DNA of 53,619 nt. Origin: an uncultured Lachnospiraceae bacterium (lineage in GTDB: Bacteria; Bacillota; Clostridia; Lachnospirales; Lachnospiraceae). Location: contig CACYHD010000010.1 of NCBI GenBank assembly GCA_902774125.1, positions 1 through 53,619 of the forward strand. Direction: 5' to 3'. Positions 9,488 through 11,795 of the stretch are shown piece by piece. The notes below the pieces were generated by a model that saw only the letters and a list, made by a program, of their open reading frames with translations, ran no database searches and had not been told where the DNA came from. How positions within the stretch are numbered: position 1 is the first letter of the stretch; every line of letters starts with the position of its first letter. Position numbers and translations under genes: made by a program.

Positions 9488-9520
9488 TTGTTTTTGGAAC
9501 AATCAATCTTGGAGGATAAC

Positions 9521-10321
9521 ATGACAGATACTAATGAAGAAATAATAAAAGAAGTCAGCAACTCAAACGTTGAAGACGTTAAGGACGCTGATGTGGTTAA
9601 TACAGAAGAACCAAAGGTAGATCAGAAGCCTGAAGAAAAGAAATCTTGGGGCAGAGAGCTACTTAGCTGGGTTATGGTCGTTGTTGTGGCTGTAGTCATT
9701 GCACTAGTAGTTAATACATTTTTGATTGTTAATGCTAACGTACCTAGTGGTTCAATGGAAAACACAATTATGACTAAGAGCCGCATGATTGGTCTTAGAA
9801 CAGCATATTGGTTCTCATCTCCTAAGAGAGGACAGATTGTAATATTCAAGTATCCTGACAACGAAAACGAAGAATTCGTTAAGCGAGTAATCGGTCAGCC
9901 GGGAGAAAAAATTACAATTAAAGATGCACATATTTTTGTCAACGATAGCAAAAAGCCGCTCAAAGAGAACTACCTCAAGGAAGAGTGGGTTATCGACAAC
10001 GGTGATGAAGAAGAGCGTGTATACTACGTTCCAAAAAAAGGTGATGAAGTTGTTGTAAAGGACGGCATCGCTCGAATCAACGATATCGAAGTTCTTATCA
10101 GAGGCGACTACCTAGAAGGAAACGACAGCGTTGACCTTAAGGATGGCACATATAAGATGAAGGACGATTGCTTCTTTATGCTAGGCGATAACAGAAATTC
10201 ATCTAAGGATTCAAGAGCATGGCAGTATACATTTGTTCTAGAAAGCAACATTGATGCCAAGGCAGAGTTTGTTTACTGGCCGCTCAAAGAATTCAAAGGC
10301 CTCAAAACAGCCGAGTATTAA
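9521..10321 (+). CDS. lepB: Signal peptidase I
   Basis: The start at 9521 follows GGAGG; the open frame reaches back to 9488 without a ribosome site. A 266-residue type I signal peptidase: an acidic cytoplasmic N-terminus (about 45 residues), one membrane segment (LLSWVMVVVVAVVIALVVNTF), box B NVPSGSMENTI with the catalytic Ser, box D EEFVKRVIGQPGE with the catalytic Lys, and box E FFMLGDNRNSSKDSR. It cleaves signal peptides of exported proteins, of which this window encodes many. It lies 33 bp after rpoD, probably co-transcribed. Its last codons form part of the long palindrome starting at 10304. Confidence 0.93.
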   Translation: MTDTNEEIIKEVSNSNVEDVKDADVVNTEEPKVDQKPEEKKSWGRELLSWVMVVVVAVVIALVVNTFLIVNANVPSGSMENTIMTKSRMIGLRTAYWFSSPKRGQIVIFKYPDNENEEFVKRVIGQPGEKITIKDAHIFVNDSKKPLKENYLKEEWVIDNGDEEERVYYVPKKGDEVVVKDGIARINDIEVLIRGDYLEGNDSVDLKDGTYKMKDDCFFMLGDNRNSSKDSRAWQYTFVLESNIDAKAEFVYWPLKEFKGLKTAEY

Positions 10322-10640
10322 AAATATTTTGGAGAAGTGTTCGTTTATTCATCGCAAACGTTTAATGTTTCTCTATAAAGCTAAATAAAGCGGGAATGTT
10401 TTTCCTTAAAAAGAATAATAATATTGAGCCATGCGGATTCGCGAGTTTTCTTGATGAAAACTCTCTCGGACCGCATTAAATATTTCCGACTTGTGGTCGG
10501 AAATATTTGCTCATATTGTTATTCTTTTTTTCGGAAACATTTACCCGCTTTATTTAAATGCTTTATGCGAGAAACATTAAACGTTTGCAATATACTAATC
10601 GAAAGTTCCCCAAAATACAGTTTTAATACTCGGCCGTTTT
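10304..10640. repeat. Long palindromic element A with a three-way-junction core
   Basis: About 337 nt that folds back on itself. The outer arms include a 20-bp perfect match (GCAAACGTTTAATGTTTCTC at 10354-10373 against its complement at about 10569-10588) and reach from the end of lepB, including its stop codon (10304-10323), to 10621-10640. They enclose two hairpins: 10431-10476 (ATGCGG..CCGCAT closing GAGTTTTC-TTGAT-GAAAACTC) and 10478-10508 (13-bp perfect stem around TTGTG). Read on the minus strand, the two inner hairpins match those of element B. It contains no credible protein. A structured RNA, a two-way terminator or a palindromic mobile element are all possible. Confidence 0.75.
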
Positions 10641-10740
10641 TGTTGTACCAAAACAAATATTTATGGAATATGGTTTTTAAAACTAAGCGGCCTTGGCCAA
10701 AACAATTATTTCGAGAATATTTTTTAACATATGTTTTAGA

Positions 10741-10978
10741 TCACATTAAAAAAGTGGATTTCTAAAAAAACATTTTAACGAGGCACACAAAGATTTCTGA
10801 AAAAATAATAAAAATATGGGGTTAATTTCCTCGAATACAAGTCGAGGAAATTAAGTGCAGCCTGAGAGAGTTTTCATCAAGAAAACTCTCGAATCTGCAC
10901 GACCCCATATTTTTATTATTTTGAAGTTCAATCTTTGTGCCTTGTTAAGTTTTTTTAGAAACCACTTTTATAATGTGA
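10741..10978. repeat. Long palindromic element B, inverted relative of element A
   Basis: About 238 nt with near-complementary arms of about 78 bases (10741-10820 against 10901-10978; for example TCACATTA..AAAGTGG, TTTCTAAAAAAAC and AATAATAAAAATATGGGG pair). They enclose two hairpins: 10822-10854 (12-bp perfect stem, loop ATACAAG) and 10855-10900 (GTGCAG..CTGCAC closing GAGAGTTTTC-ATCAA-GAAAACTCTC). Order, loops and inner stem match the reverse complement of element A, with paired base changes in the stems. The 100 nt between A and B (10641-10740) are AT-rich and show no gene. The element lies between the ends of lepB and the convergent GNAT gene. Confidence 0.75.
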
Positions 10979-10996
10979 AAAAAATATATATTAAAA

Positions 10997-11749
10997 CTAA
11001 ATCTCGAAATAATTGATTTGGCTGATTGTGGTGAAGCCGATTTTTTTGTAGAGATTGAGGGCAGGAGTGTTCTCCTTGGTAACGTGTAGCAACACTTTAT
11101 CAAACTTCTCAAAAGTATCAGCTAGTATAGCCATAGTCATAGCGTACCCATAACCCTGTTCTCTAAGCTCCTCTTCAACTTCCACATCATGAATACAAGC
11201 AGCAGAACTTGTTCCGTAAACGATAGCTCGGCCTACCTTTGTATCGCCGTCGTAGGCATCAATCACAAGATTTTCTCCATCCACGGCGCTGTCCAAAACA
11301 AGACTGTTTTCAATAGGAGTAAAATCCTCCTTGCTAAGCGCCATTCCGATTTCGCATGAAGTAAAAGTTAGCCCCATTTTGTTGGCGAACGACTCCCCGG
11401 CATCATTGCCAGGTGCAATCGGCATTCTGTAAGATACAGAATCATAGTCCATGACCATTCTAAAAAACAGATTGGATGCTATAGCCTGTCTGCGATATTC
11501 GGGATGGACAAAAACACATAGTTCTATATTGTAATCGTCAATCTTATAAACGCTCAAAAAACCTACAAGCTCCTTGTCACAAAAAGCGCAGTACGCATAT
11601 GGAACGTGTATAGAAGCTGTATACTCGTCATCCACAAAAAAAGAATGCTCTATATTATCTGCTTTGTTACATTCCTGGGCCAAGGCCATAAAGCGGTCCA
11701 CGTCCGCTTGTTTTTTGCTATATAATTTTTGATAATCTATATTTTTCAT
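10997..11749 (-). CDS. GNAT acetyltransferase with two GNAT-like halves
   Basis: 250 residues starting at 11749 (MKNIDYQKL). The N-terminal half (about 10-130) has a GNAT fold pattern with CVFVHPEYRRQAIASNLFFRM; the C-terminal half (about 150-250) has VEVEEELREQGYGYAMTMAILA and ENTPALNLYKKIGF, the acetyl-CoA-binding and terminal strands of GNAT. The family moves an acetyl group from acetyl-CoA to amines; the substrate is unknown. The frame is open to 11791, but a -10 box sits just upstream of 11749 and overlaps that longer form, so the short start, which has no ribosome site and looks leaderless, is preferred. Confidence 0.8.
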   Translation of the reverse strand: MKNIDYQKLYSKKQADVDRFMALAQECNKADNIEHSFFVDDEYTASIHVPYAYCAFCDKELVGFLSVYKIDDYNIELCVFVHPEYRRQAIASNLFFRMVMDYDSVSYRMPIAPGNDAGESFANKMGLTFTSCEIGMALSKEDFTPIENSLVLDSAVDGENLVIDAYDGDTKVGRAIVYGTSSAACIHDVEVEEELREQGYGYAMTMAILADTFEKFDKVLLHVTKENTPALNLYKKIGFTTISQINYFEI

Positions 11750-11756
11750 AGTTAAT

Positions 11757-11765
11757 ATTTTAGCA
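11757..11765 (-). promoter_or_regulatory. Extended -10 seven bases before the GNAT start (candidate leaderless transcript)
   Basis: On the minus strand, TGCTAAAAT ends 7 nt before the ATG at 11749. This is the same spacing as at 6393/6401, and the intervening bases are alike (ATTAACT here, ATTTACT there). No Shine-Dalgarno sequence is present. Confidence 0.45.
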
Positions 11766-11795
11766 TACGGAATAGGGCAAAAAAAGGACATAATA

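Follow-up and report, generated by a model that had tools for sequence, protein, structure and literature searches.

In bacteria, instability is the expected fate of long palindromes. Integron attC sites and Xer/dif modules are folded or palindromic recombination sites, and class C group II introns insert directly behind intrinsic terminators. Inverted pairs of REPs are known as REPINs. The REPs themselves are short dispersed palindromes that are treated as structured single-stranded DNA by RAYTs, according to the sections of one report that concern them (PMC3733652). The BOX, RUP, and SPRITE MITEs are portrayed, in the relevant part of their source, as AT-rich, intergenic, non-coding, and stem-loop-forming elements that cluster and insert into each other (PMC10969869). 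In the mitochondria of Nematomorpha, inverted repeats of up to 284 bp are reported to overlap coding sequence (PMC6649704).

Here, we describe two long palindromic elements, A and B, in a 53,619-nucleotide stretch of DNA from an uncultured Lachnospiraceae bacterium (assembly GCA_902774125.1, contig CACYHD010000010.1), referred to below as the window. A and B prove to be copies of a single type of element, well past anything that chance would give, and represent what is apparently an undescribed family of small dispersed DNA elements of gut and rumen Lachnospiraceae, the A/B family. We read its members as mobile DNA palindromes, non-coding and non-autonomous, with arms that evolve in concert, probably through fold-back template switching, and we assign this reading a probability of roughly 0.6.

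Element A is a palindrome at 10304..10640 that is read on the minus strand. Its core, made up of the three-way junction and the inner arms (10397..10547, minus strand), scores 171.3 bits with the covariance model R1, for which A was a training sequence. Hairpin 1 of A carries an ACAAG loop on the minus strand (10478..10508), and hairpin 2, GAGTTTTC-ATCAA-GAAAACTC on the minus strand (10443..10463), is enclosed by the closing stem ATGCGG/CCGCAT (10431..10476, minus strand), in which 10431-10436 pairs with 10471-10476. Element B (10741..10978) lies on the plus strand, as do all its parts, and its core (10784..10933) scores 145 bits with R1 (E 7.6e-30), B having been absent from model building. 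Hairpin 1 of B, again with an ACAAG loop, spans 10822..10854, and hairpin 2, GAGTTTTC-ATCAA-GAAAACTC (10868..10888), is enclosed by the closing stem GTGCAG/CTGCAC (10855..10900), in which 10855-10860 pairs with 10895-10900. The hairpin pair, its order, the ATCAA and ACAAG loops, and both closing stems are all as the preliminary description gave them, and both palindromes are present and fold as it claimed. Folded as single-stranded DNA, the minus strand of A reaches -110.4 kcal/mol (z -20.1; 0 of 100 shuffles as good) and the plus strand of B reaches -81.9 kcal/mol (z -20.2; 0 of 200 shuffles as good); across three shuffle-controlled folds, z ranges from -17 to -20 and no shuffle, of 100 or 200 each, equals the real fold. 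The outer arms of A and B were said to be unlike, and BLAST indeed joins A to B only over positions 60-186 of B, at 77%. The coordinates first reported for the two elements hold, but the palindromes reach into the neighboring genes. The gene upstream of A (9488..10321, plus strand), which we take from its sequence to be a signal peptidase gene, lepB, has its 3' end toward A, and the lepB-side arm of A takes in the final 18 nt of lepB and its 3' UTR. The palindrome of B extends outward to about 10702 and about 11022, past 10978 and into the end of a convergent gene, presumably encoding a GNAT-like acetyltransferase (10997..11791, minus strand), whose 3' end is toward B.

An RNAalifold consensus of the whole MAFFT alignment of copies was discarded, having returned just 18 pairs with the arms misaligned, and because of this failure R1 was built from six close copies, all from the genome that contains the window (G000; 1.9 Mb, 86 contigs). 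That genome holds nine full copies. The core of A groups with other copies, and B alone finds three other loci in this genome that are 82-84% identical across nearly its whole length and have different flanks. Two further arrangements were seen on one contig of this genome: a derivative at G000:C2:20681-20774 in which the outer stem alone is left and both core hairpins are gone, and, near 58,800 (L002, 1351-1510), a minisatellite with units of ~60 bp that adjoins an element and seems to replace part of its left outer arm. The search of related genomes with a covariance model that the preliminary description had proposed yielded further copies with paired stems. Among 24 genomes of the genus, R1 found 43 copies in 11 and none in the other 13 at E 0.001; among 397 genomes of the family, copies were found in 12 at E 1e-5, G000 counted, a figure to be taken as a minimum in view of the stricter filters and of a model whose training copies all came from a single genome. 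Full-length R1 matches (E <= 0.003) were obtained in 49 of 51 loci searched, a set in which six loci supplied R1 and most were preselected by the exact hairpin; in the remaining two (L101 and L107), R1 matches the hairpin alone.

A scan of 84,980 species genomes for the exact 21-base hairpin 2 returned 78 stretches, and since the exact hairpin was imposed by the scan, the conservation of hairpin 2 cannot be read from this set. All except two of these stretches (76 of 78) come from records, for the most part rumen MAGs, that bear the names Lachnospiraceae, Lachnospira, Eubacterium, Oribacterium, or Faecalicatena; the two found elsewhere, in Hyphomicrobiales (L059) and Prochloron (L073), are candidates identified by the exact hairpin. 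The rumen MAGs RUI379 and Tb.RUG.215 contribute 23 and 15 stretches, respectively, and, when pooled, contain two subfamilies, one of 18 copies and one of 20, in each of which the inner sequence is closely similar. Two carriers bear no MAG label, Faecalicatena faecalis AGMB00832 and Oribacterium sp. P6A1. At several Lachnospira loci, the element is common to several species in place. Elements are about 210 to 460 bp long. A plasmid or phage origin was ruled against by distant blastn with B, which gave zero matches in the plasmid and phage collections. Four similar viral contigs (L108-L111) contain the exact 21-base hairpin, with no comparable core in the flanks that were inspected.

The core is about 151-159 nt long and consists of two hairpins in a three-way junction. 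Across 46 aligned copies, 94.8% of the core pair cells are paired, all 55 core pairs are doubly changed, and 914 doubly changed cells are observed versus 254 after shuffling, figures that are inflated because the alignment was fitted to the structure; when the partners are slid by one base, pairing falls to about 49%. By composition, 92% of the core cells are Watson-Crick and 2.6% are G-U. Between orthologous elements, 21 of 26 overlapping comparisons have more double Watson-Crick changes than the per-site rate predicts, and the other five show none; the L195/L250 comparison has 7 such changes versus 1.5 expected. A tandem G.A internal loop recurs ~20 bp from the junction in the model orientation, and most types outside Lachnospira have a TGA...GAAT loop next to hairpin 2. 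Outside the exact scan, hairpin 2 varies (L009, L117, and several family members), with changes in the stem and a loop, CATCA(A)G, that is mostly kept. In type-II elements, hairpin 2 has A and T runs on its flanks and resembles a bidirectional terminator.

Hairpin 1 differs in a number of copies. To the eye, it seems to be missing in L032, L063, L065, L071, L098 (S9M_St_59), and L052 (Oribacterium sp. P6A1), where hairpin 2 and the closing stem are kept, and in L050, L068, and L076 a longer and different structured stretch stands in its place, the remainder appearing unchanged. A known RNA family was rejected as an explanation, Rfam having given nothing relevant: the window has zero matches at gathering scores, and the only matches at E<=0.1 in seven loci are a SAM riboswitch (L057) and a long-hairpin miRNA match (L105, 76 bits versus a 245-bit cut-off). 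The SAM riboswitch, at 250-349 on the plus strand of L057 in RUI379, lies near an element. The preliminary description knew of no RNA or mobile element with such a layout, and in our literature search no element was recognized as equivalent to the A/B family.

Elements are placed in a fixed orientation relative to genes, taken as plain ORFs with a minimum length of 100 or 110 codons. The hairpin-2 side faces the 3' end of a gene in 66 of 85 cases (p 3e-7), and in 48 of 61 once near-duplicates are removed, so that copies do sit at gene 3' ends, a location about which the preliminary description had asked; the hairpin-1 side does so in 39 of 71 cases (p 0.48), or 21 of 40 without near-duplicates. 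Among 14 pairs of elements less than 1 kb apart in the loci scanned, 12 are arranged minus-then-plus, two are in tandem, and none are plus-then-minus (p 3e-6 versus a 1-in-4 chance), with three of the 12 resting on a weak partner (E 0.007 to 0.08). These recurring pairs, together with the relatives found by R1, bear out the original proposal that the window holds, head to head, two examples of a single element type whose core is conserved and whose outer stems are free.

The arms of many elements contain host sequence. Of 55 elements whose upstream gene is clear, 27 have a palindrome that extends at least nine columns into the coding sequence of that gene, and 928 of 1091 coding columns in the arms match; in controls, the extension has a median of 0, a 90th percentile of 4, and a maximum of 16. 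The idea, suggested by single cases, that the stop codon determines how long an arm is was rejected over the whole set (Spearman -0.03, with 25 of 53 elements within 20 nt versus 17.8 after shuffling). In the window, A and B follow the lepB stop codon, and the final 18 nt of lepB recur inverted at the far end of A. LepB-like proteins occur in 21 of the 24 genus genomes, G000 counted, and the C-terminus in G000 (...KTAEY) resembles that of its nearest kin (...HTADY), while distant ones differ. A terminator-like hairpin lies within 130 nt of the stop codon in 12 of 20 lepB orthologues, a convergent GNAT homologue within 900 nt in 15, and both are present in nine. Because the lepB ends of the closest relatives are alike and the terminator and GNAT context is found among orthologues, it is the inverted copy of the lepB end, near 10625-10640, that has most likely been derived. 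At a second locus, where a small membrane protein gene lies beside an acyltransferase-like gene, five genomes (G001, G005, G011, G016, and G004) carry an element and a sixth (G006) has a plain terminator; by eye, an outer-arm stretch differs strongly between G004 and G001 at this locus, yet it is paired in each. Two observations concern the sequence around the arms. At L248, the inverted gene-end copy in the far arm overlaps a promoter-like TTGATT...TACAAT before the next gene. At L033, L103, and L066 (SIG293), a second common sequence of ~40 bp follows the elements, just beyond the palindrome at their 3' end, and may belong to another repeat family.

Such covariation and fixed placement would also be expected of a structured RNA, which might be a 3' UTR structure (a terminator or stabilizer) belonging to the gene next to hairpin 2, or else a small RNA made from the opposite, model strand. 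This is a live rival, which we consider unlikely. In its favor are the very strong covariation, the fixed polarity toward gene 3' ends, the occupation of places where some relatives have intrinsic terminators, and the terminator-like flanks of hairpin 2 in type-II elements. However, by eye an intact terminator already precedes the element at L097, L072, L041, and L213, and wobble pairs are rare, G-U filling just 64 of 2481 core cells (A.C 25) even though the fitting model favors G-U.

Strand preference was counted in two ways. A loose arm aligner, which scores all mismatches alike and runs into weakly matched flanks, was applied to 63 non-redundant elements and gave, in the sense of the neighboring gene, 308 G.T and 306 A.C, with more G.T in 30 elements and more A.C in 25, as well as 392 C.T and 221 G.A. 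In a strict recount on the model strand, G.T (180) and A.C (153) are near-symmetric overall (p 0.15), and by distance from the junction their counts are 21/15 in the inner 25 nt, 118/83 at 26-100 nt (p 0.016), and 41/55 beyond. The same recount gave 305 G.A versus 60 C.T, an excess that owes part of its size to inherited tandem G.A and that favors the model strand, which is antisense to the neighboring gene. Single changes between orthologues, in the gene sense, number 41 for A.C and 18 for G.T, summed over overlapping comparisons. The view that the elements have no strand preference at all was thereby narrowed by the strict recount; the earlier remark that G-U pairs do not clearly favor one strand stands nearly as written, but G.A does favor one. 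Since the strand favored by G.A is antisense to the mRNA of the gene, a folded single DNA strand is suggested over RNA. The signs of a wobble preference, namely the mild excess at 26-100 nt, the core counts of 64 G.T and 25 A.C, and the orthologue counts of 41 and 18, leave room for an RNA of the model strand. In our reading of these data, the two arms change in step as DNA, and the model strand probably folds by itself like single-stranded DNA.

Alternatively, the elements could be cruciforms that bind a protein and serve the chromosome between genes, in topology, transcription collision, or the nucleoid; they would then spread by duplication and be kept by selection on both DNA strands. This second live rival, which we regard as quite improbable, is consistent with the near-symmetric wobble, with the concerted change of the arms, with convergent genes on the two sides of the element in 27 of the 70 cases that were placed, and with elements common to several species in place at some loci. 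It sits poorly with the strongly one-stranded G.A versus C.T counts, the patchy distribution, and the closely similar copies inside single genomes; moreover, G006 has a plain terminator where its close relatives carry the element, and arms that extend into coding sequence offer no obvious benefit.

The reading as a mobile element is well supported. Copies are dispersed, occur patchily across genera, are near-identical inside some genomes, and keep one polarity behind genes, and one lineage gives a view of their ends. In the two RUI379/Tb.RUG.215 subfamilies, the flanks end in 24-bp palindromes of the form TTTCATAAAGTATACTTTATGAAA. RUI379 has a single such palindrome right behind a terminator at a site where Tb.RUG.215 has a b-type element and an a-type fragment between two palindromes, an insertion that is a mosaic of two elements and whose two palindrome copies differ. 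When up to one mismatch is allowed, three genomes have 29, 30, and 39 occurrences of the 24-bp palindrome and none of the reversed control pattern. It can be common to neighboring elements, and on one contig (G420:C25) three palindromes are spaced 321 and 326 bp apart. Solo palindromes also exist, two of which (L290 and L294) apparently lie behind stop codons. By pattern count, the site is absent from G000 and G001; it is therefore not a family-wide end, and ends differ among lineages. As to the target-site duplications that the preliminary description had proposed to look for, this lineage has a palindrome, in two differing copies, at both ends of a mosaic insertion and once at the empty site, and no clean target duplication was established in G000.

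Candidates for a mobilizer were sought among the carriers and beside the elements. The Y1/RAYT domain PF01797 (E<=0.001) was found in one of 11 genus carriers (G008) and in five of 13 non-carriers, one of them below the cut-off, several of these genomes being incomplete; mobilization by a RAYT was rejected on its absence from the other ten carriers. The 25 largest ORF families recurring beside elements are housekeeping-like by eye, and a neighboring transposase was set aside, no transposase-like family being prominent among them. Loss of SbcCD as a permissive factor was also rejected: full-score SbcD is present in 3 of 11 carriers versus 9 of 13 non-carriers, a comparison that is not significant (p 0.10) and is confounded by kinship and completeness, and G000 itself has a full-score SbcD.

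In a retro-type element, a group II intron-like or retron-like enzyme would reverse-transcribe an RNA hairpin, with insertion at terminators. Such an element would account for the position right behind terminators, in fixed orientation, that is seen in one lineage, and self-primed reverse transcription could give an inverted copy of a gene end; we give it very little credence, as wobble is scarce and the window has no Rfam match at gathering scores. An assembly artefact, through inverted template switching during library preparation or assembly, is very unlikely for the family as a whole and the least probable reading, for although many rumen-MAG copies lie near the ends of the examined stretches, often contig ends, the same core recurs in many independently assembled genomes with its stems paired, two of the records bear no MAG label, orthologous copies occupy one locus in several species, and the arms differ by substitutions; the loss of pairing, the absence of further copies, and the artefact that the preliminary description had named as possible refutations were thus not encountered at the level of the family.

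The mechanism that we propose for these mobile palindromes begins with the model strand, which would fold as single-stranded DNA into the three-way junction, with its CATCA(A)G loop and tandem G.A, and in this form would serve as the substrate. A recombinase or transposase acting in trans may recognize the folded strand. During replication, the strand could fold back and copy itself by quasi-palindrome template switching, which would keep the arms complementary, and we infer that template switching fits best as the force behind their pairing. The same fold-back copying, rather than selection on an RNA fold, may let the arms grow outward over the gene end. A stronger version of this proposal is offered only tentatively: a new class of bacterial mobile DNA in which a three-way-junction hairpin, moved by an enzyme as one folded DNA strand, would enter palindromic sites behind genes and afterwards lengthen as the end of the host gene is copied by fold-back. 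If this holds, the C-terminal sequences encoded by neighboring genes would become complementary, and palindromes as long as ~460 bp would persist in genomes. The family keeps many palindromes, up to about 460 bp, beside apparent housekeeping genes, and may therefore be regarded as a natural system for palindrome growth and arm correction on an evolutionary scale, and it may involve a new recombinase able to recognize DNA through a folded core. The family also bears on RNA discovery, as covariation alone is no proof of RNA: it is overwhelming here, yet G-U is rare and wobble is nearly strand-symmetric. The strand symmetry of wobble is a cheap test for RNA discovery pipelines.

Compared with the systems introduced above, the A/B family shows partial likeness to several. 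The palindromes of Nematomorpha mitochondria likewise overlap coding sequence; unlike the A/B family, they are not described, as far as the abstract shows, as a dispersed family with a conserved core (PMC6649704). The family may be likened to attC sites and Xer/dif modules in that neighboring elements of one lineage share a palindromic site, but it carries no genes and the site is not family-wide. Relative to class C group II introns, its members are far too short, encode no protein, and have no Rfam match in the window. The likeness to REPs and REPINs lies in short dispersed palindromes that also occur in inverted pairs, whereas REPs measure 20-40 bp and have a GTAG end, and A/B elements measure about 210-460 bp, have a three-way junction, show no constant GTAG end in the copies inspected, and lie in genomes of which 10 of 11 in the genus are without Y1/RAYT. 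As in MITEs, the elements are short, AT-rich, intergenic, non-coding, and dispersed, with terminal inverted repeats in the form of the arms, and they form stem-loops, cluster, and insert into each other; they differ in having a Watson-Crick covarying core across diverged subfamilies and host coding sequence in the arms, and no parent transposase was found among the 25 ORF families beside them. The A/B family lacks the RAYT and GTAG features of REPs and has no parent identified, but in its behavior it comes closest to a MITE, or to a REP-type element of very large size.
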